Positions 35,787 to 48,723 of a stretch of 64,000 nucleotides of DNA are shown one piece after another (position 1 is the stretch's first letter; every line of letters begins with the position of its first letter). The DNA is from an uncultured Methylophaga sp. GTDB taxonomy: Bacteria; Pseudomonadota; Gammaproteobacteria; Nitrosococcales; Methylophagaceae. A program made the position numbers and the translations under genes. The stretch lies in contig NZ_CAMYKO010000006.1 in assembly GCF_947259025.1 (NCBI RefSeq), positions 186,001 to 250,000 of the forward strand, read 5' to 3'. Under the pieces are notes generated by a model. The model saw only the letters and a program-made list of their open reading frames with translations, had not been told where the DNA came from and searched no databases.

Positions 35787-36013
35787 GGCGCGCCACCTTT
35801 TCCTTAATTGCAATAAAGCATAGGACTGATTGTGACATGCCATGGGCTTGGTCAACCAGCTTCAGGCTTCATCAGCACCTGGGGTGATGAGTAGCCTATT
35901 CAGCGTCTGATTAAATTTCACTCATCCATTTTGTCGTTATAATGGACGATACGCAGGCTAGAAGTCACGTGCCAGCCATATCATCAGATCGGCGATCTGA
36001 AAGGAGTGGGATG

Positions 36014-36283
36014 ATGAGTAACAGGCAAAACCCCGGCATTTACGTGGAGTGTCTGGCTGATTATCGGGCGGAACAAGAGCCCGGCCGTTTCTTTTATGGC
36101 GACAGACAAATCCTGGTCAGCGAAATCCTGGATCGCTGGCTGGATCCTTCTCATGGCTATTACAAACTACGTGGAGATGATGATGCGCTATATATTCTGC
36201 GCCATGATGTCATTCTTGATAGTTGGGAGCTGATCCTGTTCGACAGCGGAAAATACGAGCCCACGCGGCTGTCATCGACATAG
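36014..36283 (+). CDS. Uncharacterised small soluble protein, 89 residues
   Basis: Not recognised by name. The start at 36014 is supported by AAGGAG 7 bases upstream (36001-36006); an ATG directly before (36011) also exists. The protein reads PGIYVECLADYRAEQEPGRF and continues with a beta-rich pattern of aromatic and charged residues (VSEILDRWLDPSHGYYKLRG, LYILRHDVILDSWELILFD) ending in a short polar tail. No signal or membrane segment. It looks like a small, conserved, cytosolic beta-rich domain. Confidence 0.65.
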   Translation: MSNRQNPGIYVECLADYRAEQEPGRFFYGDRQILVSEILDRWLDPSHGYYKLRGDDDALYILRHDVILDSWELILFDSGKYEPTRLSST

Positions 36284-36322
36284 CCTGACTTGATGACAGC
36301 GCACCAACCTCTAAGACAAACC

Positions 36323-37075
36323 GTCACTGCGAGGAGCGATAGCGACGCGGCAGTCCAGCCTCGATCTATATTCAAGTCCGGGCTGGTCGTGCTTGTGGGT
36401 TTTGATTGCTCAACTGAGGCCTGGATTGCTTCACTTCGTTCGCAATGACGGCGCTTAGAAAAATCATCACTGTGAGGAACGATAGCGACGCGGCAGTCCA
36501 GCCCCGATCTATATTCAAGTCCGGGCTGTTTGTACTGGTGAGTTTTGATTGCTGAACTGAGGCCTGGATTGCTTCACTTCGTTCGCAATGACGGCGCTTA
36601 GAAAAATCGTCACTGTGAGGAACGATAGCGACGCGACAGTCCAGCCCCGATCTATATTCAAGTCCGGGCTGTTTGTGCTTGTGGGTTTTGATTGCTGAAC
36701 TGTGGCCTGGATTGCTTCACTGCGTTCGCAATGACGGGACGTAGGAAAAATCGTCACTGCGAGGAGCGCTAGCGACGCGGCAGTCCAGCCCCGATCTATA
36801 TTAAATCCCAGGCTGATTGTACTTGTGAGTTTTGATTGCTGAGCTGTGGCCTGGATTGCTTCACTTCGTTCGCAATGACGGGACTTAGAGAAAATGTCAC
36901 TGCGAGGAGCGCTAGCGACGCGGCAGTCCAGCCCCGATCTATATTAAATCCCGGGCTGATTGTACTTGTGAGTTTTGATTGCTGAGCTGTGGCATGGATT
37001 GCTTCACTTCGTTCGCAATGACGGGACTTAGAGAAAATGTCACTGCGAGGAGCGCTAGCGACGCGGCAGTCCAGA
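36323..37075. repeat. Tandem repeat array 2, period 143-144 bp, about 5.3 copies
   Basis: Left modules (GTCACTGCGAGGAGCGATAGC…CAGTCCAG) start at 36323, 36466, 36609, 36753, 36896 and 37039. Each full unit has a core beginning CCCCGATCTATATT and a right module GCCTGGATTGCTTCACTTCG…CGCAATGAC. The module is the same family as array 1, but the core is unrelated and the internal part of the module differs (TAGCGACGCGGC). The array fills the 36284-37140 gap between the small protein gene and the CaCA antiporter gene. Confidence 0.95.
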
Positions 37076-37140
37076 TCCAGATCTCAATTCCACGCACCAT
37101 CATTGATATTCACCCCCCCCCAAGACCGCCAGAAAAAGCC

Positions 37141-38160
37141 TCAAGCATTCACCACAATCATACCAATCGCAGCAGCATAAACCGCCAGAATCAGCGCACT
37201 TTCAAAACCGATGCGACCAATGCCATAGGTTTCACGCCGCACCATACCCATCAGCAAAATGGCGGTCATTAGAATACTGACCAATCCCCAGGTCATCTGC
37301 AGCGGTGCCATTGCTGAATAGATTGACCCATCGGGATAAGCAACATCCGCCGCAGCGACGACCAGCATATTAAAGCAGTTGGTGCCAAAGATATTACTGA
37401 CCGCCAGGGTCAGTGCGCCATAGCGAATAGCCGCGATGGTTGTCACCAGCTCAGGCGCCGAAGTCACCAGCGCGGTCAGCAGACCACCGACCAGCGTGTC
37501 TGAGAGCCCGGTCTCATCAGCAATGAGTTTGGCGGATTCCATCAGGGTCCAACCGGCGAGCCCGGTGACCACCGCCAGCGCCACAAACAACAGCCATCTT
37601 GCCAGCAGACTGCCACTGCGTTTTTGTTTGGGGCTATCCGGCACAGTTTGCTTTGTGCGCCGTGGAAACCACATCGGTTTGGCCTCGGTGTGACGCACCA
37701 GTTGAATGCCGAACAGATAGGCAATAATGATCACAAAAGTGACCGGATGCAGAAGCCACTGGGATGAGACCGGCGTCACAATGGCAAGCAGGGGCAGGGT
37801 AAGCAGAACGATCAGCAGCCCGGCCAGCATCAGGTTCACCGGCGAGGCAGCGGCATGTTCCAGGTTGGCTTTGCGGTAAACGATATCAGCGATGCCCAGA
37901 AAGGCCAGGTTCACTGCCATACTGCCCATCACATTACTCATTGCCAGATCGGGGCGGGCATCCATTGCTGCACTTAAGGTCGCGGCGAAGTCAGGCAGGG
38001 AAGTCACCCCCGCCAGTAGCAGAATACCGAACAAGGCTTCACCCATACCGGTGCGGTCAGCCAGTTCATCGGCCAGTCCCGCCAGACGGCTGCCAGCGGC
38101 GACGATAATGACTGCCGCCAAGGCAAACGCAATAATGCTGAGCAGCAATGATGAAAACAT
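37141..38160 (-). CDS. CaCA-family cation antiporter (Na+/Ca2+ exchanger type)
   Basis: A 339-residue inner-membrane antiporter with about ten helices in two inverted halves. The two alpha-repeat motifs with acidic ion-binding residues are visible: GVTSLPDFAATLSAAM…NVMGSMAVNL (residues 50-86) and ALVTSAPELVTTIAAI…NIFGTNCFNM (near 237-271). Both repeats begin T-S-x-P-[DE], so it is competent. Calcium/proton or calcium/sodium exchange is likely. It is downstream of the PepSY gene, 93 bases away with a dyad between them. Confidence 0.87.
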   Translation of the reverse strand: MFSSLLLSIIAFALAAVIIVAAGSRLAGLADELADRTGMGEALFGILLLAGVTSLPDFAATLSAAMDARPDLAMSNVMGSMAVNLAFLGIADIVYRKANLEHAAASPVNLMLAGLLIVLLTLPLLAIVTPVSSQWLLHPVTFVIIIAYLFGIQLVRHTEAKPMWFPRRTKQTVPDSPKQKRSGSLLARWLLFVALAVVTGLAGWTLMESAKLIADETGLSDTLVGGLLTALVTSAPELVTTIAAIRYGALTLAVSNIFGTNCFNMLVVAAADVAYPDGSIYSAMAPLQMTWGLVSILMTAILLMGMVRRETYGIGRIGFESALILAVYAAAIGMIVVNA

Positions 38161-38191
38161 GCGGGTGTTTAACCCCCGTGCTGTTGAAAGT

Positions 38192-38232
38192 CCATAATCA
38201 AAATGTCTGAGGACGATTCTGCTTGATTATGG
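38192..38232. repeat. Perfect 10-bp inverted repeat upstream of the antiporter gene
   Basis: CCATAATCAA (38192-38201) and TTGATTATGG (38223-38232) with a 21-base spacer, then TGTTTTT on the plus strand. It lies between the end of the PepSY gene and the start of the antiporter gene, both on the minus strand. Operator or leftover terminator. Confidence 0.5.
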
Positions 38233-38253
38233 TGTTTTTCAAAACCCCTGCGC

Positions 38254-39639
38254 TTACTTGAAAATCAGCCGTAGTCGCTCGACTCTTGAGATCAGCACTA
38301 AATCTACGGCGATAATGACCGCTATGGCTGCCGCTGAGAGCGGAAACAGCAAGGCCACGACCAGCATCAGAGCCACCACGGCTCTATTGGCAGCGGGATG
38401 TGCGGGTGGCGGGACAATAGCGCGGGTTTTTTGCGGGCGACGCTTCCACCACATCACGGTACCGCCGACAATCATCAACATCACCAGTGCGCATAGCACC
38501 AGGTTCGTGATCAGATTCCACAGTCCCAGATCCCCCTGATGCAGGGGAATGCCCGCTGTCATGGCCTTACCCATCAGTGGATAATCTGCAAAGCGGACAT
38601 CACCCAATACCTCACCGGAGTGACGGTCCAGATGCAAAGTACGTTCTTGCAGCGGATTGGTCAGATCGCCGGCCATGGTAGTGGTAGAAATCGTCCACAC
38701 ACCGGTGTCATCGGCCGGAAGGTGAACACGGAAGCTGTCAAAACCCTGCTCTTGAGCCATCTGCGCTACCTGATCCAGGTCCAGCGCTTTCGGCTTGTCA
38801 GGCGCACTGTCCGATTGTGGCATCGGCGTCTGTTCCAGCGTCCAGGGCACATGTTCCATACCCTCATGGTTCATACTTTGATGCGTGGTTTCTGTTGCCG
38901 GGGCAACGAAGCTGGTGCTGGGCACCGAACTCCAGGCCTGCACCAGTTTTCCGCCCCAGATATTGGTCCAAGACATCCCCGAGAGCAGGAAAAACAGCAG
39001 TGGCAGCGCCAGTACAAGACCAATAAAACCGTGCAGACGACGCCAGTCGGTGCGACTGCTTAAACGGGCTCGTGGCAACATATCGCGCCAGCTTTGACGC
39101 TGAAAGGCCAGATAAATACCACTGAGCACCATCAATATCGCCAGCCCGGCAGCAATCTCGATCAGACTGTCACCCAGGTCGCCCAGATACAGCTTGCCGT
39201 GAAAGGTTTTGATCGCCGAATAAATACTATCGCCCGGATCATAGGTGCCCAGTACTTCGCCGTTATAAGGGTTCACAAAAGCCGTGGTGCTGGGCGCACC
39301 GTGGCCGCCATGACCGCCAGCGTGATGGGCAACCAGCGAAAACTGAGCCGACTGTGTCGGTTCAGATGGCGGAATATAGAGCTTCACTCTGGCGTCAGGA
39401 AATGACTCGCGAACTGTCGCCAGCAATGTTGTCGCGGGCAGCGCATCACCTTCAACACTGACCTGGGTCATATCCTTGATCAGCCAATTATCGACAGGCT
39501 TGCTCAACAGCATCATCAGGCCGCTCGCCGACAACGCCAGCAGAAATGGCATCACCAGCAGCCCGGCATAAAAATGCCAGCGCCAGAGTGCGCGGTAAAA
39601 AGCACCATCACGTGGGGCAGTAGAGTTAGCAGTGTTCAT
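38254..39639 (-). CDS. PepSY-domain membrane protein (PiuB-like)
   Basis: A 461-residue protein with four transmembrane helices and periplasmic PepSY segments, PepSY_TM family. N-terminal FYRALWRWHFYAGLLVMPFL is the family signature; the mid part has DWRRLHGFIGLVLALPLLFF. A His/Gly stretch (HHAGGHGGHGA) lies near residue 108 and a second Met/His-rich segment (HQSMNHEGMEHVPW) near 260, suggesting metal contact. Family members are often tied to ferric-siderophore or copper handling. Not proven for this one. Confidence 0.83.
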   Translation of the reverse strand: MNTANSTAPRDGAFYRALWRWHFYAGLLVMPFLLALSASGLMMLLSKPVDNWLIKDMTQVSVEGDALPATTLLATVRESFPDARVKLYIPPSEPTQSAQFSLVAHHAGGHGGHGAPSTTAFVNPYNGEVLGTYDPGDSIYSAIKTFHGKLYLGDLGDSLIEIAAGLAILMVLSGIYLAFQRQSWRDMLPRARLSSRTDWRRLHGFIGLVLALPLLFFLLSGMSWTNIWGGKLVQAWSSVPSTSFVAPATETTHQSMNHEGMEHVPWTLEQTPMPQSDSAPDKPKALDLDQVAQMAQEQGFDSFRVHLPADDTGVWTISTTTMAGDLTNPLQERTLHLDRHSGEVLGDVRFADYPLMGKAMTAGIPLHQGDLGLWNLITNLVLCALVMLMIVGGTVMWWKRRPQKTRAIVPPPAHPAANRAVVALMLVVALLFPLSAAAIAVIIAVDLVLISRVERLRLIFK

Positions 39640-39766
39640 TTAAGATTTTGTCTTGTGGGGAAATTTAGATTAATCAGCTCGGGGAAATCAGCAGCAACGG
39701 CAAGCTTAAACGTCGCCTGAACCCAAGTCCAGCGGTTTTCTATTGAGAGAGGGATTAAGCGGGTAG

Positions 39767-40225
39767 TTAGATATAAGCAGGCGAACTGGCAAAAATCTCA
39801 GGGTTCAGGGCTTTGAACACGGTCCAGATTCGGCTGGTGATAGTTTCGGACTGCTTGATTAGCTCAGCTTCAGCAGGCTCATCACTGAACAGGCCATCGA
39901 TGTATGTCTGAACCAGCCTGTCATTGTTTTGCAGCTTAAAGTCCTGTTCAATCTTTTTCAGCTCAGCAGCGTCGAATTGATTGACCCGGCGTTTGGCCAG
40001 ATAGCCTTCAGCATCCAGAGTCAGATACCAGAGCTTAATGCTGCGTAACACTTCAGCCCCGTCTTTATCTGCCACAATCTGTGCTTCAATCAGTTGAATA
40101 TCCTGGTTGGCATTTTTCCACAAAACCCGCTGCCTGGAAGTGATACTCGACAGATAGCCGTTGGGAACCAGCTTGATTCGCTCGCTTTCTGGGGTGTAGA
40201 GATAAGTGCGATAGGCGATATTCAT
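39767..40225 (-). CDS. Uncharacterised protein, 152 residues
   Basis: Not recognised. A soluble protein with a beta-rich first half (YRTYLYTPESERIKLVPNGY, then WKNANQDIQLIEAQIVADKD) and a helical charged second half. No signal peptide. It is 53 bases downstream of parA on the same strand and may be part of the same transcript; a role in segregation or as a ParA partner is possible but unsupported, as it lacks any ParB-like HTH. Confidence 0.6.
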   Translation of the reverse strand: MNIAYRTYLYTPESERIKLVPNGYLSSITSRQRVLWKNANQDIQLIEAQIVADKDGAEVLRSIKLWYLTLDAEGYLAKRRVNQFDAAELKKIEQDFKLQNNDRLVQTYIDGLFSDEPAEAELIKQSETITSRIWTVFKALNPEIFASSPAYI

Positions 40226-40278
40226 TGATTTGTCTTTGCCTGGTTGCCGTGTGCTCTCACAAGCTGCCTGCGACTGGC

Positions 40279-41097
40279 TTAAGAAGCCCGCCGGGCAGGA
40301 AGGTCAGGAATGATGAAAGAATCATCTTGTTTCGATGGCGCTTGTTGCAGCCTCTCAAGTAATGCCTGATATGCTCTGACACCATGACTCTGGCTGTCGT
40401 AACGCGATGGCGTTTCACCCTGTTTACTGGCTTCACGAAAAGACGTATCCACCGGAATCACCGAAGACCAGGTGTGCTGGGCATAATCCGTACGCAGAGT
40501 TTCCAGCGTCAGCACTGAGGCCCGTGTTCGCTGGTCATACATAGTGGGGATGATGGTGTAGTCCAACGCCTGCTTAAGAGATTTGGTCACCATAGTGATG
40601 GTTCTGAGCATACGCTCCAGGCCTTTAAGTGCCAGAAACTCGGTCTGTACAGGAACCAGCAGGTGATCACTCGCGGCCAGGGCATTAATCATCAAAGCGC
40701 CGAGTCCGGGCGGACTGTCGATAATGACATGATCAAAATCATGACTGACCTGAGCAATGGCTCGTGTCACTTTCAGCCCCATGCCACCCTGTGTGGCTTT
40801 GCGTTCAACCGTAGCGAGGCCGATGCTGGCCGGCATCAAATACAGACCTTCACTGTTGGTGGGGCGAATCAAGGCCTGCACTTCGCTGCGGCGGATTTTA
40901 TCTGTGCTGAACAGATTGGTGCTGCTTGTATGAATATGTTCAGGATCATGGCCAAAGTAGGAAGTCATCGAACCCTGTGGGTCGATATCAATTAACAGAA
41001 CCCGCTGTCCCTGGTCGGCCAGTAAGCCTCCCAGGCTGATAGCCGTTGTGGTTTTTCCTACCCCACCTTTCTGATTGGCTACCGCCCATGTTTTCAT
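40279..41097 (-). CDS. parA: ParA/Soj-family ATPase
   Basis: A 272-residue deviant Walker-type ATPase. KGGVGKTTTAISL (residues 10-22) carries the signature Lys of ParA, followed by LLIDIDPQGSMTSYFG and VIIDSPPGLGALM. No N-terminal DNA-binding domain, so it resembles chromosomal Soj-type or orphan ParA proteins that position cellular cargo. No parB gene or parS site was seen in the window. An AT-rich 305-base region lies upstream. Confidence 0.88.
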   Translation of the reverse strand: MKTWAVANQKGGVGKTTTAISLGGLLADQGQRVLLIDIDPQGSMTSYFGHDPEHIHTSSTNLFSTDKIRRSEVQALIRPTNSEGLYLMPASIGLATVERKATQGGMGLKVTRAIAQVSHDFDHVIIDSPPGLGALMINALAASDHLLVPVQTEFLALKGLERMLRTITMVTKSLKQALDYTIIPTMYDQRTRASVLTLETLRTDYAQHTWSSVIPVDTSFREASKQGETPSRYDSQSHGVRAYQALLERLQQAPSKQDDSFIIPDLPARRAS

Positions 41098-41402
41098 AGC
41101 GAGTTCCTCTCAATATTCCCTGAACTATTTGTGACAAAATTTAAACCGCTTTTTAGGCGTTTGCAAGATAATATTAACTTTTAAATTAGGTGTATAACTC
41201 AAGTTACTGAATATTAATTAAAAACTGATTTAAATGGTTTCGTGACTGAGAAAAGATTTTTGATGTATCGGTGTGCTGATCTGAGTTCTGAAATGGCGAA
41301 AATCGGCTTGAACGCAATAATCCCCGCCGCTGGTCAGACGAACCGCTGGTAATTTAGCCGGCAAAGCGTGACACTGACTATCTCATTATCCAGGGAGTTG
41401 AT
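41098..41402. other. Divergent intergenic region of parA and an SDR gene, no gene seen
   Basis: The first 150 bases are strongly AT-rich (41120-41250) and may hold promoters. A direct repeat CCGCTGGT occurs twice near 41329-41351. CAGGGAG is the ribosome site of the next gene. I see no terminator or small gene here. Confidence 0.5.
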
Positions 41403-42035
41403 ATGCAAACGGTTGTTGTCTTCGGTGCCGCCAGTGGTCTGGGCGCGGCAATGTTGGATTATTTTCATGATGCGGGCTACAACGTTATCGCTGTCGCCCG
41501 TGACCCGTCGAGAAATCCACGCCTGGCTGAATTGAATCTGGACAGCTTCAGTTGTGATGCCACCGATGAGATGCAGGTCGAACAGACCGTTGCCAAGCTG
41601 CCCAAAGACGTCTGGGTTATCTCAACCATGGGCAGTTACCGGGCTGAAGTTCCGGTCGATTACATCGGTCATCGTCATCTTATCAATGCCCTGGAAGCCA
41701 ATTCTATCCAGCGCTTTCTATTGGTGACATCACTGGGCTGCGGCGACTCCTGGCAGTATCTTTCAGCGCGATCCAAGCAGGGCTTTGGTGCAGCCGTACG
41801 GGAGAAATCGCTGGCCGAATCCTGGCTGCAGACCAGCACCCTTGATTACACCATCCTTCGCCCCGGTGGCCTGAAAGACGGTGAAGTGACTCACACAGGC
41901 CAATTATCACAGCATCAGGAAGTTCATGGCCTGATTTACCGCAGTGAAGTGGCAAGGCTGGCTGAAATGTTACTCAACAAAGCAGAGAGTGTCGGTCAGG
42001 TCTATCAGTGTGTTGACCCAGAACTGAGCTGGTAG
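41403..42035 (+). CDS. Atypical SDR, NAD(P)-binding protein
   Basis: A 210-residue Rossmann-fold protein with GAASGLGAAML (residues 8-18), VIAVARDPSR at the end of beta-2, and RFLLVTSLGCGDSW plus LDYTILRPGGLKDG in the second half. It resembles the NAD(P)H-binding group (NmrA/YwnB-like) of oxidoreductases or redox sensors. A second relative is at 31692-32354. Function unknown. Confidence 0.83.
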   Translation: MQTVVVFGAASGLGAAMLDYFHDAGYNVIAVARDPSRNPRLAELNLDSFSCDATDEMQVEQTVAKLPKDVWVISTMGSYRAEVPVDYIGHRHLINALEANSIQRFLLVTSLGCGDSWQYLSARSKQGFGAAVREKSLAESWLQTSTLDYTILRPGGLKDGEVTHTGQLSQHQEVHGLIYRSEVARLAEMLLNKAESVGQVYQCVDPELSW

Positions 42036-42097
42036 GTGGGGAGCGAGTATCACGGCTTCCAACAGCGGATTCAATTAGAAAATAGGGACGAGAAAAA

Positions 42098-42538
42098 ATG
42101 AAATCTTCAAAGTGGCTACTTATTGCTTCAACCTTATTAATTTCAATATCAGTCAAGGCTGAACCAAGCAAAGATGCGCTTATTGGCACATGGTATGCGA
42201 ATATTCATACCAGTATGTCTGAATCGACTATGTGGTTGCTTCAACTCAGGGAAGACAACAGCTACCTTTCTCAGAAAATGCTGTGTCAGACAAAAAAATT
42301 AATCTGGGTCGATGAAACAACCGGCACCTGGAAGTTAGATAAATCAGCATTAATCCAGATGCCGAAAACCCGTAGTGATTTCAATAAGTATGAAGAAACG
42401 GAATCAGGCGAAACCATTACCTTTACCGATGTCACGGTGAAAGAAGACTCATTGAGTTACAAAAATGCCAACCAGAAAAAGCTCACATTCAAACGCCATG
42501 ATGGTTTTTTCAGAATGCGTTGCAGTGGGTTGATGTAA
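42098..42538 (+). CDS. Uncharacterised secreted protein, lipocalin-like outline
   Basis: A 146-residue protein with a signal peptide to about residue 21 (…ISVKA/EPSKDA). The mature part begins LIGTWYANI, a pattern common in lipocalin-type proteins, and continues as alternating beta strands with two Cys (MLCQTKK and MRCSGLM) that may form a disulfide. Composition is more AT-rich than the neighbouring SDR gene, and it borders the cassette region, so horizontal origin is possible. Function unknown. Confidence 0.65.
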   Translation: MKSSKWLLIASTLLISISVKAEPSKDALIGTWYANIHTSMSESTMWLLQLREDNSYLSQKMLCQTKKLIWVDETTGTWKLDKSALIQMPKTRSDFNKYEETESGETITFTDVTVKEDSLSYKNANQKKLTFKRHDGFFRMRCSGLM

Positions 42539-42685
42539 GGTTTGTGAGTCAGTATTAACAATTAAACTTGGCCAGGTTTCTGGCTAGCAGCCAATTTCAA
42601 ACGAGGTCTGTGAACGGCTCTTCGAAATCACCTGCATCAAGGCTGGTTGAGACTCTGATTCTCTAGCAGTCCGCTTCAGGATATT

Positions 42686-42692
42686 GTTAGAT
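42686..42692 (-). repeat. attC-like R box overlapping a stop codon
   Basis: On the minus strand ATCTAAC AAT begins in the stop codon of the 42687-43133 gene. A possible partner ATTGTTA lies at 42557-42563, about 130 bases on, but it fits poorly. The weakest of the proposed sites. Confidence 0.35.
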
Positions 42693-43133
42693 TTTCCCTC
42701 TCTTTTTCATACTCTCGAACTGTTTTCTTGCCAGGTATCCATAAGATAGATAAAGAACACCTACATAAAATACAGTGAGAAAAGCCAGTATCCCGATCAA
42801 GATTAATGGATTGGATTTCATGAAATTGATGACTTGATAATGTTCACTTGTCAGTGTCACAAAAATGCTCACTATAAGCAGTGAAACCAGCCATGAAGTC
42901 AGATAGGAAAACCAGACGAGTTTTGTTTTTTCTGATGAGGTTGGAACGCGCTTGTTGTCCTGAATAAATTTTGCCACAGCGAATATAGCTGCCCCCATCA
43001 GAGCGCCAATTGTCACGCCTGACCCAGACTCTATCTCCAGTAACGCCGACACGATTGATAAGACAATAAGGAGGGCTAGGTTGACCAACCCAAATCTGAG
43101 GATATATTTGCTGAGTTTAACGTCCTGTGTCAT
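42687..43133 (-). CDS. ABZJ_00895-like membrane protein
   Basis: A 148-residue inner-membrane protein with four helices. The pattern LEIESGSGVTIGALMGAAIF followed by KRVPTSSEKTKLVWFSYLTS is typical of the family named after ABZJ_00895, which is seen often in cassette arrays and accessory DNA. Function unknown. Last cassette of the array in the direction of reading. Confidence 0.75.
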   Translation of the reverse strand: MTQDVKLSKYILRFGLVNLALLIVLSIVSALLEIESGSGVTIGALMGAAIFAVAKFIQDNKRVPTSSEKTKLVWFSYLTSWLVSLLIVSIFVTLTSEHYQVINFMKSNPLILIGILAFLTVFYVGVLYLSYGYLARKQFESMKKRGKI

Positions 43134-43268
43134 TCAATAATTCCTTTTGATGCTTTTAAATTTTGAGTGGAGATGCAGCCTGAATCGGGAGCTGTGCTCT
43201 ACTGGGTGCTCTTGCTTTAAACCTGACTATTCGTCACTGTCTGGAGTAGTTTGATGAGGCTAGTGCAA

Positions 43269-43805
43269 TCACGGTTTCGAGATCACCTCAACGCTATCAG
43301 CAAGGCAAGCCGTTTTTTTCCTGTCAAAGCTCTGAACCGGGTTGGTGACATACCGAACCCCGGTTACCCTGACGGTGGCGCCCTTGGGAACAGACCACGG
43401 TGTAGGCGAGTTGATATCGCCGATTAAAGCTGATGAGCCGCAGTAACGCTTCCAGTCATCGCGGCCTTGTGCAGCCACCAGGGCCCCGCGAAACACACCC
43501 ACCACATCCGGAATAGGCGCGTACACTGGCTTCCAGGTCTCAGGTTTGGCTACTGGCTCAAGCTTGGCATGGCCAATTCGACAGGCCTCAATGTCGGCGT
43601 CAGACGCCTCATAGCCACGCGCCAGATTACGAGCGGGTCTGACGCACGTGCTATAGCATTCGCTGTTTGCAGCACGACAGTCCATAGACATTTGTTGTAG
43701 TTCCTTTGCCAGGTCCTGTGCTGAAACAGCCGTTGAAACAATCGCTGCCAGGAGCGCTAAAGCTACTGCAGCGGCGGGAATCATACGAAAAGCATTTGAA
43801 TTCAT
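43269..43805 (-). CDS. Uncharacterised exported Cys-containing protein
   Basis: A 178-residue protein with a signal peptide (about 1-29, ending STAVSA). The mature part has six or more Cys (MDCRAANSECYSTCVRPA, DIEACRIGH, KRYCGSS, TACLADS) and a C-terminal domain with an SH3-like or NfeD-like look (VPKGATVRVTGVRYV). Likely periplasmic with disulfides. Not recognised. Within the cassette array; no clear attC follows it. Confidence 0.65.
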   Translation of the reverse strand: MNSNAFRMIPAAAVALALLAAIVSTAVSAQDLAKELQQMSMDCRAANSECYSTCVRPARNLARGYEASDADIEACRIGHAKLEPVAKPETWKPVYAPIPDVVGVFRGALVAAQGRDDWKRYCGSSALIGDINSPTPWSVPKGATVRVTGVRYVTNPVQSFDRKKTACLADSVEVISKP

Positions 43806-43847
43806 TGAGGTTCCTTTCTCAGTTGGAAGGTTGGCTTACACAGCGTT

Positions 43848-43854
43848 GTTAGGT
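43848..43854 (-). repeat. Isolated attC-type box
   Basis: Minus-strand ACCTAAC AACGC, in the 151 bases between the VOC cassette and the exported protein gene. No matching second box is seen, so this is a remnant at best. Confidence 0.3.
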
Positions 43855-43956
43855 GGAACTGAGTTAAGGTTACCAGGACGTATGTCTCCATGGTGTGTGA
43901 ATAGAGGCTGAGCCAAAGAGGTCGGCCGGACACTGACAGTGATGTTAACAGCATTC

Positions 43957-44316
43957 TCAGGCAACGGGCTCAGACCAGACAGCGAACTCATTCCCACTGG
44001 GATCGGTGAAGTGAAACCGCCGACCGCCGGGGAAATCGAATATATCTTTAACTATCATACCGCCCGCTGAGATAACGCCTTCAAGTGTTGCCTCAAGCTC
44101 TGAGCTGTAGAGCACGACTAAAACGCTGCCTTTCTCAGGTGAAGCTATTTGGTCTGACTTGTAAAAGCCGCCATCTAATCCCGCATTCTCAATCGCTACA
44201 TAGTCGGTGCCATAATCAACAAACGACCAGCCAAAAGCCGAAGTAAAGAATGCCTTCGTCGCCTCAAGATCCCGTGATGGCATTTCGACATAATTGATTT
44301 TTCCTGTTTCCTTCAT
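43957..44316 (-). CDS. VOC-family protein, cassette-borne
   Basis: A 119-residue glyoxalase/bleomycin-resistance-fold protein (GKINYVEMPSRDLEATKAFF … FHFTDPSGNEFAVWS). VOC proteins of this kind are very common in integron cassettes. The missing His at the first metal position (Tyr-Val-Glu instead of His) suggests a binding rather than a dioxygenase role. Substrate unknown. Confidence 0.83.
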   Translation of the reverse strand: MKETGKINYVEMPSRDLEATKAFFTSAFGWSFVDYGTDYVAIENAGLDGGFYKSDQIASPEKGSVLVVLYSSELEATLEGVISAGGMIVKDIFDFPGGRRFHFTDPSGNEFAVWSEPVA

Positions 44317-44416
44317 CGAGCTGTCCTTTATGCTTGACGTATTACCAAGCTCATTTTACGTAGTCCTGCGGAGTATGCCTTGGCCGACGGTGAGTATGAG
44401 CTACTCATCAGGTTGT

Positions 44417-44626
44417 TTATGAGCCATAGCCAAAAAACCGTAAGACTTCGATTATTGCTATAACAACAGTTGATATCGCGCCTGAAATGATGGCTATATT
44501 CAGCCAACTTTCTAGTTCAATTTTTTGTTTTATATGCACGGGTTTCCCATGCCAATAAAGGTTGTTATCTTCGTCTATGCCCAAATGATCAAGCTCATCT
44601 ATTGTTATGCTTTTGATTTCTGGCAT
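44417..44626 (-). CDS. Small single-helix membrane protein, 69 residues
   Basis: A soluble N-terminal half (ITIDELDHLGIDEDNNLYWH, GKPVHIKQK) followed by one membrane helix (about 44-66). The motif LYW-x-GK-P-V followed by W and a C-terminal helix is known to me from small proteins of cassette arrays and accessory islands, but no function is recorded. The next site upstream is the best attC of the array. Confidence 0.65.
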   Translation of the reverse strand: MPEIKSITIDELDHLGIDEDNNLYWHGKPVHIKQKIELESWLNIAIISGAISTVVIAIIEVLRFFGYGS

Positions 44627-44636
44627 TGAGAATTGT

Positions 44637-44720
44637 CCTTAACTTTAACTAGAAATGACGACTTAAGGCTGTCAGCAAGGGTGCCGCTTTGCTGCGTCCC
44701 TCTGGCTGGCCTTGTTAATG
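44637..44720 (-). repeat. attC-like site (84 bp)
   Basis: Bounded by CCTTAAC (44637-44643) and GTTAATG (44714-44720), directly after the stop of the 44721-45704 gene. Within it AAGGC…AGC…GGG and CCC…GCT…GCCTT on the minus strand pair as an imperfect hairpin with a small central loop, the architecture recognised by IntI on folded single strands. Box consensus is imperfect. Confidence 0.6.
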
Positions 44721-45704
44721 TTATTCATCATCTGACCTTAGGTTCAGCATAATATCGCTACAAGATGCGTAAAAGTAATTCGGGACTTCGGTTTTCATGA
44801 TGGCTCTGTAAGTATTCTTTGGTTTATCGTTCTTCCCGTATTCAAATTCGAAGTTAAGAGAATGGTAATACTGCTCATCCATATAGAGCTCTGAAGGGCC
44901 ATGCGTGCCGTTCTTTATTGCAGACTTTGCTGCACTCTCAATCGCAAGTAACTCAGCGAATGGGACTCCTAAGCTATTCAAGCAAATATGATTCTTTGAT
45001 TGTGATATATGTAGAAGAGGCTCTTCGTAATACTCATTACTACCCTGAGTTACTACGGAATATATATCCAACCCTAAAACATCACGGTATATTTCTCGTA
45101 TCTCGCAAATTATTTTAAGAATTGACTCAGGCTCGTAAGAGCACTCGATTCCTTTATGGAAATAACCGACAGACCAATTGCTTTTTAGAATCAGGCTATC
45201 CGCGAATGAAATAAACGATATGTCACTATGTTGTTCTGCTAGGGCATCTATTCTGTTACGCAGTTCAACAAGCAACTCCTTAGTAAGCAAGTTGTTTCGA
45301 ATTGCCTCTTTAACGCCAATGGCATCAATGAGAGCAAAAACTGAGTATTCCCTTGTATATAGGCGCTCTAGCCAATCGTCTTTGACAAATATGTAAGGAT
45401 TAAGATCATATTGCCAGCAACCTATGCAAGTTATAATTCTGTCCTTTGGTAAACTTATAGAGACTTCGTGAAATCTCGTGTGAGTATTTGGGTACCACGA
45501 AAGATCAAGTGAGTTATCGTTTATCTGTCTTCCGGCGACAAAAGTTACATAACCAACCTCGTGGGGACTGTTGTCTTTACCTTCAAGCATGCTTACAAGA
45601 GCATTGCTAAATTCCTCCATGTACTTCTCACTCATCAAGACACAGTCCTGATTTAGTGGAATATCTTTGAAAGAGTACTTATCTATATCCTTATGCTCGA
45701 ACAA
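44721..45704 (-). CDS. Uncharacterised protein with a nucleotide-cyclase-like core pattern
   Basis: A 327-residue soluble protein, AT-rich compared with its neighbours, so recently acquired. The central part reads VFALIDAIGVKEAIRNN and then ISFISFADSLILKSNW; a hydrophobic-Asp-hydrophobic-Gly strand followed by a Phe-[AS]-Asp-Ser strand about 50 residues later is the layout of class III cyclase/GGDEF-like palm domains, where the Asp residues bind metal. This is a weak structural guess. No signal or membrane segment. No confirmed function. Confidence 0.55.
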   Translation of the reverse strand: MFEHKDIDKYSFKDIPLNQDCVLMSEKYMEEFSNALVSMLEGKDNSPHEVGYVTFVAGRQINDNSLDLSWYPNTHTRFHEVSISLPKDRIITCIGCWQYDLNPYIFVKDDWLERLYTREYSVFALIDAIGVKEAIRNNLLTKELLVELRNRIDALAEQHSDISFISFADSLILKSNWSVGYFHKGIECSYEPESILKIICEIREIYRDVLGLDIYSVVTQGSNEYYEEPLLHISQSKNHICLNSLGVPFAELLAIESAAKSAIKNGTHGPSELYMDEQYYHSLNFEFEYGKNDKPKNTYRAIMKTEVPNYFYASCSDIMLNLRSDDE

Positions 45705-45725
45705 TGAGGTTTACTCCGTCTTGAA

Positions 45726-45763
45726 CATTAACTCCTGAGTTCAGCTGCAACGATTTGTTAGGC
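45726..45763 (-). repeat. Truncated attC-like site
   Basis: Minus-strand GCCTAAC AA (plus 45757-45763 GTTAGGC) and GTTAATG (plus 45726-45732), only 38 bases apart. The first box is a perfect consensus box; the central stem is missing or very short. Confidence 0.45.
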
Positions 45764-45788
45764 GCACACTCACCTGCCTTAACGCCGC

Positions 45789-46781
45789 TCACATCGAACG
45801 CCCAACGGTAGATAAGACATCAATTATGTCGAAAAGCCGACCGGCATACTTTTCCCTCAGATTGAAGTCTGTACCCGCTTTGCCGCTAAGGTCGCTCCCA
45901 ACCGCACTCACCAGCTTTTTCAACCTCTTCTGATGAATTCCAAGCTTCGCCTGTAGTGGATCGGTCAAAATACCAATGAACGTTGATACAAGCGCAAGGA
46001 CAATAGCGATAGCAGCTGTGACAGCCACAAACAGCCTAGCGGAAGCCGCAACCGGAAAAACCGCGTAGTAGTATGAACCAGCCGTTGAACCCAACCAGAA
46101 GTTGGATGCGGCCGCGGAGTTCGCCACAGTTGCAGAAACTGCAGTCCCAGCACTAAGTGTGCCAAATGAGGCCTGGCCAAGGGCAATTTTGCTAGTTACC
46201 AGTAGCATGGCGTTGCTTGCCAAGTCTGATGATGCTGTGCGAGTTGCGCCATACTCAGCCAGCTTTGCGTCAAGCTTGTCTCTGAACTCAGGCGATTTGG
46301 CAGGCTCAGAGAATGTATCAAGAACCTCGTTTAGCAACGACCGTAAATCCGGATCTTTGAGAATTTCTGTCATCAAAGCATCTTTGTCGCTACTGTTTTG
46401 ACCCTGTTGATACGGAAGTTCCAGAAGCTCGGTGACGATGAGCCAACTAATTTGCCGATCCATATCAGTTTCCCAACCTGGGGGAATTTTCCTAATCCAG
46501 TGCTGTAGCTTTTTCAGCCTGATAAGGCCGGCAACGAATCCAACCAGCGCGAGGAAGATGTTTGCAACCGACCAGATGATGTTGACCGGCACACGAACCA
46601 CATCCCAACCAAGTGCGTGGCTGTGAATCTTCAGCGCTCCGCGGAAAGAATAATGGCGGCGAACGAACTCACCAATACGATTTTCCCGCTCACAAATATA
46701 GCTTTCAGAAGCAGCGGTAATTGCTTTTCTGATGATGGCAAGCACCTCATCTTCATTAAGCTTTTTGTGTAGTCCTCTCAA
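45789..46781 (-). CDS. Uncharacterised membrane protein, 330 residues
   Basis: It has two membrane regions, one near residues 63-90 (IIWSVANIFLALVGFVAGLI) and one in the Ala-rich stretch near 195-275. The N-terminal motif RRHYSFRGALKIHSHALGWD reminds me of DUF6635 proteins, but I cannot verify this. A DUF-like C-terminus rich in Lys and Leu follows. No enzymatic motif. Cassette-borne, followed by a short attC remnant. Confidence 0.6.
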   Translation of the reverse strand: MRGLHKKLNEDEVLAIIRKAITAASESYICERENRIGEFVRRHYSFRGALKIHSHALGWDVVRVPVNIIWSVANIFLALVGFVAGLIRLKKLQHWIRKIPPGWETDMDRQISWLIVTELLELPYQQGQNSSDKDALMTEILKDPDLRSLLNEVLDTFSEPAKSPEFRDKLDAKLAEYGATRTASSDLASNAMLLVTSKIALGQASFGTLSAGTAVSATVANSAAASNFWLGSTAGSYYYAVFPVAASARLFVAVTAAIAIVLALVSTFIGILTDPLQAKLGIHQKRLKKLVSAVGSDLSGKAGTDFNLREKYAGRLFDIIDVLSTVGRSM

Positions 46782-46807
46782 TCTCTTCCCCCCCCCATTT
46801 CCTGTGC

Positions 46808-46895
46808 GCCTAACACCCTCATTTGGGGCCGTAGTGAAGCGCAGCGGAACCGAGGTCCCAGCCCCGCAGGGGCCAACAACATGCGCTTGTTAGGA
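46808..46895 (-). repeat. attC-like site (88 bp), best-matching boxes
   Basis: Plus-strand GCCTAAC (46808-46814) and GTTAGGA (46889-46895) fit RYYYAAC and GTTRRRY almost fully. GGGGC and GCCCC in between can pair. It lies immediately after the stop of the lipoprotein gene, as expected for a cassette. Confidence 0.7.
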
Positions 46896-46898
46896 GTG

Positions 46899-47180
46899 CT
46901 ACTTGCACCTTACTAGCATTGAGCGCTGCATTACTGTACTACCAAAAACTGTACCTTGATCGGCGCTAATAACCGCACCTTTTTCCGAGCCTCCCGCTAT
47001 AATCTCATACCCTTTGGCACCACATAATTCACCAGCTTTTTCATAGCACTTACCCCATGTCAAGGCAGTGCCCGAGCAATCAATACTGTGCCCCTGCTCC
47101 CCACTTGGGAGATACGTTGTGTTTGAGGTAGCACAACCACTAAGAATAGCTACAACAATAATCAATGGAATCTTCTTCAT
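46899..47180 (-). CDS. Small lipoprotein, cassette-borne
   Basis: A 93-residue protein with a lipobox signal peptide (VVAILSGC, Cys16). The mature part is a compact Cys/Gly-rich domain (IDCSGTALTWGKCYEKAGEL, CGAKGYEIIAGGSEKGA) ending MLVRC. Probably anchored in the outer or inner membrane; Lys/Thr at +2/+3 (CATS) do not signal retention in the inner membrane. Function unknown. First cassette of the array, next to where attI and the integrase would be expected. Confidence 0.7.
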   Translation of the reverse strand: MKKIPLIIVVAILSGCATSNTTYLPSGEQGHSIDCSGTALTWGKCYEKAGELCGAKGYEIIAGGSEKGAVISADQGTVFGSTVMQRSMLVRCK

Positions 47181-47187
47181 GTGTAAC

Positions 47188-47235
47188 TCCTAACAGTCTG
47201 TTTATGAGGCCGCTGGCCTCATAATAATGATTAGC
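47188..47235 (-). repeat. Array boundary: attC/attI-like box and hairpin
   Basis: TCCTAAC (47188-47194, minus strand GTTAGGA) is followed by a perfect 10-bp hairpin TTATGAGGCC-gct-GGCCTCATAA (47202-47224) and ATTAGCG (47229-47235). It could be a very short attC or the worn remnant of the attI site. Confidence 0.4.
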
Positions 47236-47505
47236 GTGAATAGATCATAATTACTCATGCAAAGATTGATGCTTTGTAATTACTTGATTTTATGGCGAAA
47301 TAAGAAGCTGAAAATAGATAGGGTGCTAAAGAGGAACAAGGCCTCTTTAATTGCTGGTGGTGAGAGCTAGGAAATGACCGGTTTGAAACCATAATAGAAA
47401 TCCTTTTCTGGTGAAGTTGCTAGAATTAAATCCTTATAAAATCAGCGTAGTAACTGATGACCGTTTTGTGAACTATTTCACAATCAATAAGATAGCGCAA
47501 CTGAA
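47236..47505. other. Non-coding stretch beyond the cassette array
   Basis: AT-rich, with no integrase remnant in any frame that I can see. The only open frame (from 47411, plus) runs into the MFS gene and has no family-like features or ribosome site. Possibly the scar left by loss of intI. Confidence 0.5.
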
Positions 47506-48723
47506 TCAGGCAGCGGGGCTGTTATGCGCCTCCCGAATAGGCCCTTGCGCCATCAGCCAGGCAATGATCAGAATCACCAGCATGCCAATCAGGATGGACT
47601 GGAAGCGGACACCGGCATCAAGCATATAGCCTAAAAAGGCCGGGGCCAGGCCGGTTGAGAACACCAAGAAGGCTGATTTTAAGGAGCGCACCTGGCCCAG
47701 GTGTTCCCGGCCCCAGAGTCTGACCAGCAGGCTGTCACCGATGGGGGAGGACATACCCAAAGCGGTCCCCGCGCCGAGCATAATGATCCAAATCGCAGCA
47801 TTGCCGCCGACCAGCACAGCAGCGAGCAGGGCGAGTGCAAACGGCAGAAGGTAGAGGCGGGCCAGTGCTGTCACGCCAAACTCATCTATCCAGCGGCCAC
47901 CGAGCAGCGCACCAGGAAAACGGGAAATCCCCAGTCCGGTCAGGGCAAAGGCATAGGCGGTGGCAGTGGCACCCAGATCTTCGGTCATTTGCGCCTGGTA
48001 GATAAAGATACCGGTCAGGGTGATGGGCAGGATCATGAGCATGGGTATCAGCATCCAGAAGCGACGCTCACGCATGGGTGACGGGCCTTTATCCTGGTGG
48101 CTGTTTTTATCTTTTTTCTTTCTGGGGGCTTCAGGCCAGTCAACAAACAAAAGTAATAAGCCCCATAACAGCGCCAGCACCACGAGCAGGCCCCACCAGA
48201 TTTGCTGCCAGCTCAAGACGCCCACTAACAGAGCGATGGCTGGGGGCAGAATGATTTCACCGGATGGCATGCCCAGGCTGACCAGGCCCAGAGCCTTGCC
48301 ACGATTGAGGGCAAACTCGCGTCCCGCTAAGGTGCTGCCGAAGTGGGTCATCAAACCCTGACCACAAAGGCGTTGTAGGCCCAGGCCGAAAACAGCGAGT
48401 CCCCACCAGGGTGAGAGGGTGAGCATCAGTACGCCGATAAAGAGAACAGATAACACCATCAATACATAACGGCGCGGTGCAACCCAGTCGATCTTGGGTC
48501 CGAAATGCATCACCAGAAAGCCACTGGTCATGGTAATGGCGGCGTAAATACTGCCAAATTCACCGGCAGAAATATCGAGGTAGGCACTGATATCGGCCTG
48601 GAACAGCCCGATAAAAAAGCTCTGACCCAGATTGCCGGTAAACACGGCCAGCCAGGCAGCCGCGATCAGGCCGAAATGACGACTTAACAGGCCGCCGTAA
48701 CCAAGACGTGTATCCGAGTCCAT
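47506..48723 (-). CDS. MFS transporter
   Basis: A 405-residue inner-membrane protein with twelve helices and a long charged central loop (PRKKKDKNSHQDKGPSPMRE near residues 200-222). Motifs AITMTSGFLVMHFGPKIDW after helix 2 and GKALGLVSLGMPSGE near helix 5 match the nitrate/oxalate-like or YnfM-like branch of MFS. No substrate can be given. It is followed (downstream) by the array remnant and preceded by the YjdF-like gene on the same strand. Confidence 0.87.
   Translation of the reverse strand: MDSDTRLGYGGLLSRHFGLIAAAWLAVFTGNLGQSFFIGLFQADISAYLDISAGEFGSIYAAITMTSGFLVMHFGPKIDWVAPRRYVLMVLSVLFIGVLMLTLSPWWGLAVFGLGLQRLCGQGLMTHFGSTLAGREFALNRGKALGLVSLGMPSGEIILPPAIALLVGVLSWQQIWWGLLVVLALLWGLLLLFVDWPEAPRKKKDKNSHQDKGPSPMRERRFWMLIPMLMILPITLTGIFIYQAQMTEDLGATATAYAFALTGLGISRFPGALLGGRWIDEFGVTALARLYLLPFALALLAAVLVGGNAAIWIIMLGAGTALGMSSPIGDSLLVRLWGREHLGQVRSLKSAFLVFSTGLAPAFLGYMLDAGVRFQSILIGMLVILIIAWLMAQGPIREAHNSPAA

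Follow-up and report, generated by a model that had tools for sequence, protein, structure and literature searches.

An attI-like element heads an integrase-less cassette array in Methylophaga and recurs across its genome and many marine genera

We analyzed a stretch of 64,000 nucleotides from an uncultured Methylophaga sp. (the window, to which all coordinates refer unless another contig is named). Seven minus-strand ORFs span 42687-47180 in its ORF listing and lie beyond the 3' end of a transporter gene, with an attI-like site at their head. The features are as follows.

47506..48723, minus strand: MFS transporter gene, a conserved flank, its 3' end towards the attI-like site and co-oriented with the cassettes.
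47254..47505, minus strand: position of intI by comparison with contig C5; no intI and no detectable remnant (tblastn, 16 IntI proteins).
47191..47253, minus strand: attI-like element, about 62 bp conserved, -59 to +3 around the crossover G at 47194; core TATTATGAGGCCAGCGGCCTCATAAACAGACTGTTA.
47206..47220, minus strand: palindrome GAGGCC-AGC-GGCCTC, directly upstream of the simple site ATAAACAGACTGTTAGG.
46814..47193, minus strand: cassette 1, gene 46899-47180, predicted 93-aa lipoprotein; its first bases GTTAGGAGT and R'' ACTCCTAAC (46889-46897) are perfect reverse complements.
46808..46895, minus strand: attC1, well formed; covariance model 30.4 bits, E 4.2e-5 over 115 kb, E 9.7e-4 over the whole genome.
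45732..46813, minus strand: cassette 2, gene 45789-46781, DUF6635 protein (1.1e-41); its first bases GTTAGGCGCACA and R'' TGTGCGCCTAAC (45757-45768) are perfect reverse complements over 12 bp.
45726..45768, minus strand: attC2, collapsed, about 43 bp, without a central hairpin (sequence and folding).
44661..45731, minus strand: cassette 3, gene 44721-45704, 327 aa; the start GTTAATGTT pairs with R'' AACATTAAC at 44714-44722.
44661..44720, minus strand: attC3, decayed; R' is CTTAAGT, without GTT; 14.3 bits, E 0.5.
42687..44626, minus strand: degenerate tail, genes 44417-44626, 43957-44316 (VOC), 43269-43805 and 42687-43133 (ABZJ_00895 family).

A genuine cassette opens with bases (GTT...) that are reverse-complementary to the R'' box in the attC of that cassette. 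Exactly three such start/R'' pairs of at least 9 bp occur in the window, and they form one contiguous chain from the attI-like site: GTT 47194 to 46889-46897 (9 bp), GTT 46814 to 45757-45768 (12 bp) and GTT 45732 to 44714-44722 (9 bp). Block-shuffled sequence gave a mean of 0.5 such pairs anywhere. Judged by this identity, cassettes can be demonstrated for three of the seven genes. A covariance model built from 50 attC sites of contig C5 and relatives, with the window excluded from training, returned one clear site in the window (attC1), the next best being the weak match at attC3. Neither this model nor the start/R'' test revealed a demonstrable attC in the tail, where the sites are absent or decayed. 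With one usable attC and a decaying tail, the window platform looks mostly frozen. An earlier reading made from the letters and ORFs alone (the sequence-only reading) had placed seven consecutive minus-strand genes between attC-like sites, several of them beginning at a stop codon. The seven genes are present, the start of several sites indeed coincides with a stop codon or lies close to one, and the covariance search that it suggested recovered attC1; the placement between attC sites holds for the three contiguous cassettes, with a single clean site, and fails for the other four genes.

The 327-aa protein of cassette 3 matched no Pfam family. Relatives of the protein encoded at 43269-43805 occur on the attI cassette side in a Porticoccus MAG (L197) and in two Methylophaga genomes (G022, G007). 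The VOC protein is 58% identical to a protein encoded beside the KHM-1 metallo-beta-lactamase gene on IncC plasmids, and a search of plasmids with the window cassettes returned only VOC-gene similarity. An Rfam search gave no matching family, and the window contains no tRNAs.

The MFS gene is present in 20 of the 24 genomes of the genus, and in the relatives examined the array is missing beside it; thus, the array is not part of the stable core genome. With attC1 recovered and the array absent there, the integron-like character proposed in the sequence-only reading stood up. The array forms part of an interval of about 11.6 kb (35855-47506), together with genes for an Na/Ca exchanger, a PepSY protein, a ParA-like ATPase and an SDR. 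The genes that bound this interval are adjacent in one relative (G015), and the interval is also variable in other relatives.

The genome (2.7 Mb) encodes an intact IntI on contig C5 (TIGR02249, 441 bits against a cut-off of 265), as part of a complete chromosomal integron with intI, about 14 cassette genes and well-formed attC sites (G000, L009:10277-17245). The C5 intI lies 144 bp from the same attI motif, and the attI-like site of the window is matched by the sequence that C5 has in the attI position, ahead of its first cassette (TTATTATGAGGCCAACGGCCTCATTAACATGCTGTTATAT between C5 intI and the first cassette, ATTATTATGAGGCCAGCGGCCTCATAAACAGACTGTTAGGA upstream of the first window gene). This comparison indicates that the window has an attI-like site without intI, and tblastn with 16 IntI proteins found neither intI nor a remnant of it in the 2 kb upstream of the site. 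The region beyond 47235, previously described as the non-coding place where intI should be, does lack intI; it is not empty, since it holds the attI-like site. An integrase elsewhere in the genome, which the same reading suggested looking for, is the full IntI on C5.

In the element a short GC palindrome precedes TAAAACA-N-GTTAGG, a layout like that of attI1 (palindrome GGGC-AGTC-GCCCTAAAACAAAGTTAGG); we treat this as a resemblance and not as a membership criterion. The sequence used for the comparison, which we take to be that of attI1, is present in at least 5000 plasmid records. A search for a sigma-70 promoter in the window attI-like site gave nothing above chance, and from weak matches the element perhaps contains a cassette promoter.

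The window element and the C5 attI have different leader types (TTATGATC..ATTCACGC in the window), so the window attI may originally have been paired with an IntI other than the resident one. The leader type of the window also adjoins intI or intI stubs at three loci elsewhere (L049, L187, L188), and hence the window platform may descend from another integron lineage. Three attI leader types, AATTAAAAGGCCGCC, TTATGATCCATTCACGC and GAATTATAAGGCCGCC, coexist in Methylophaga, at times two per genome.

The main point, absent from the sequence-only reading, is that the attI-like element is dispersed, both within the genome and among many marine genera. There are four copies in the window's genome, where only the C5 platform keeps intI, and one to six per genome in most of the genus. 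Scanning 84,980 species genomes, with the search conditioned on the central palindrome and, around the crossover, on the TGTT anchor only, we found the motif in 96 stretches. These belong to Methylophaga, Marinobacterium, Nitrincola, Neptuniibacter, Neomelitea, Porticoccus, Spongiibacter, Parahaliea, one Alteromonas and several MAGs. Viral contigs held no exact copy. Sixteen genomes reached via loci of other genera carry one to six copies each (a reversed-pattern control gave 0), and IntI is single in 12 of them, present twice in one and not found in three. Within Methylophaga, where relatives include M. aminisulfidivorans, M. sulfidovorans, M. thiooxydans, M. lonarensis and M. muralis, a single intact IntI is present in 6 of 24 genomes and a truncated one in 1 more; many genomes are drafts, which makes IntI absence uncertain except in near-complete genomes such as G022. 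IntI was not detected in several genomes with many platforms, among them G022 (one contig, six copies).

Usually one copy per genome adjoins intI, and attI-like copies lie 90-200 bp from intI, which starts upstream of them, in G000, G006, G012, G014, G019, Marinobacterium, Porticoccus and Spongiibacter. Across 101 aligned copies the conserved stretch begins about 59 bases upstream of the crossover G, carries mostly 1.6-2.0 bits per position through the core to GTTA, and drops to 0.0-0.6 bits, close to random, from the fourth base after G. Four loci (L051, L074, L083, L081) contain second or third attI-like copies in one array, in the same orientation and 0.2-4 kb apart.

The copies without intI are accompanied by attC-like sites on one side and one strand. 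At a score of at least 44, 303 kb of the cassette side held 51 sites on the strand of the cassettes, and the opposite strand had 0 in 303 kb; upstream, five sites were found in 311 kb, confined to two copies. The score had C5 as its training set, and the covariance model had sites chosen with that score, so attC counts at other places should be read as relative. This training has no bearing on the controls by strand and side or on the start/R'' test. In the window's genome, a covariance scan gave eight matches at E<0.01, all adjoining attI-like copies. The first cassettes showed the 9-bp start/R'' identity at 37 of 87 intI-less copies (43%) and at 11 of 17 copies with intI, compared with 1.8% when starts were paired with other platforms. 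In several Marinobacterium platforms, intI-less ones included, elements of the IS110/IS1111 type sit inside attC sites (TAAC|AAGTGACTG; L155, L167, L140, L176, L191, L145, L161), consistent with the attC-targeting IS group. Shared blocks in Marinobacterium were considered as cassette copies and rejected, as they are IS110/IS1111-type transposase genes that start inside attC.

Most copies follow the 3' end of a core gene at a distance of 95-450 bp and in the same orientation. Several platform positions recur from species to species, with six genomes having one behind bioD, four behind recD and two to four behind other genes. At the orthologous bioD and recD platforms the spacer and attI are conserved and the first cassettes differ between species. 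Tblastn detected no intI remnant at the six bioD platforms and no clear one at the recD platforms, with one doubtful match (E 0.008) at a single platform. The conserved right flank of the bioD platforms resumes 3.4-4.4 kb further on; at this border (L052, L063, L065, L068, L075, L081) it starts AAAACAGRCTAGTTTT, resembling the attI end AAAACAGACTGTT. We found no clean empty site, and where the platform is missing bioD and recD have other right-hand neighbors. The same cassette, bordered by GTT, also occurs at non-orthologous platforms of different species (L050/L075 92.8%, L076/L092 86.6%, L048/L061 90.9%); the L050 copy is joined to an attI-like site and the L075 copy to an attC.

We propose that the dispersed platforms are former integrons which have lost intI and kept attI, some of them being served in trans by the remaining IntI, and give this reading a probability of about 0.7. 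From sequence comparison, the window array would be one of four integron platforms in its genome, all headed by the same 62-bp attI family. Complete integrons, mostly downstream of core genes, would have lost intI, of which a stub persists at about 20 copies; this origin is more tentative for the roughly 80 of 118 copies that show no stub. The resulting platforms would keep attI, and perhaps also a promoter for the cassettes. In genomes that have one, the only IntI left would then insert and excise cassettes in trans at the dispersed sites, by attC x attI recombination between G and TT. The wider proposal, that in many marine Gammaproteobacteria one integrase serves several dispersed attI platforms as a distributed integron, seems to us evenly balanced. 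If true, platforms behind core genes, perhaps with a promoter each, would allow cassettes to be inserted and expressed at several chromosomal sites simultaneously.

A less likely explanation, although the most serious competitor, is that the platforms are relics only, each once a complete integron filled in cis by its own integrase before intI was lost, with the resident IntI inactive there. IntI fragments of 20-217 aa, mostly N-terminal, adjoin about 20 further copies of the 118 searched by tblastn; these stubs lie on the intI side only, with none on the cassette side. The decaying attC sites of the window and the existence of platforms in genomes without detected IntI also fit relics, and cassette turnover at intI-less sites could date from the time of a local intI or reflect homologous recombination. 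However, the bioD platforms of six species lack remnants yet differ in their first cassettes, so that exchange probably continued after intI was gone from this site. At 43% of intI-less copies the first cassette is clean and its start/R'' identity exact, which likewise counts against relics.

An ordinary CALIN, formed without attI by random attG insertion through IntI or by rearrangement away from an integron, is very improbable. The missing adjacent intI and the decayed attC sites would fit, and there are known routes to CALINs, namely off-target insertion, intI loss and rearrangement (PMC8618304; also PMC12444791). Against this, the window array and dozens more begin at an element that closely resembles the one linked to intI, whereas attG-type insertion requires just a short core and would give no upstream homology. 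We dismiss as least probable of all an unrelated repeat (MITE, REP or terminator) near cassettes by chance: the element is multicopy and contains palindromes, but in many genera it occupies the place of attI, 90-200 bp from intI, its conservation ends at the GTTA crossover, cassettes start at its GTT with a matching downstream R'', and a search for a terminator-like site found none.

CALINs are common and their origin is debated. With an explicit attI motif, many seemingly orphan arrays are seen to be attI-headed platforms, several per genome and often at orthologous positions with exchanged cassettes, which suggests that integron capture capacity is undercounted. The one to six landing sites per genome, each usually with different captured genes, suggest that a single integrase may supply several gene-capture platforms simultaneously, and the action of IntI in trans on distant platforms becomes directly testable. 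Apart from those of class 1 integrons, attI sites have received little description, and they escape standard software (PMC9024848). In the open literature, to which our search was confined, we found no description of dispersed attI sites.

We compared the dispersed platforms to known systems. The conserved-position CALINs of Xanthomonas are likewise intI-less arrays at conserved chromosomal positions, interpreted as remnants of ancestral integron activity, and the available text of PMC12444791 gives no description of a shared attI heading several loci per genome. Off-integron insertion at attG (Loot et al. 2024, as cited in PMC12444791) resembles our proposal in placing cassettes outside the integron by IntI acting at a distance; its target is a short degenerate genomic site, in contrast to the conserved 62-bp attI-like element here. 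CALINs in general share the cassettes without an adjacent intI, and to this extent the sequence-only reading, which had called the window array a CALIN, was right. CALINs are, however, defined irrespective of attI, and the window array has an attI-like head, one well-formed attC and three demonstrable cassettes. Since the default CALIN threshold of IntegronFinder, as given in PMC12444791, is two attC sites, the array would probably not be called a CALIN by that convention. The sedentary chromosomal integron shares the IntI family, the attI x attC architecture and the cassettes running in one direction from attI, and differs in that the genomes described here have several attI platforms each, away from a single intI.
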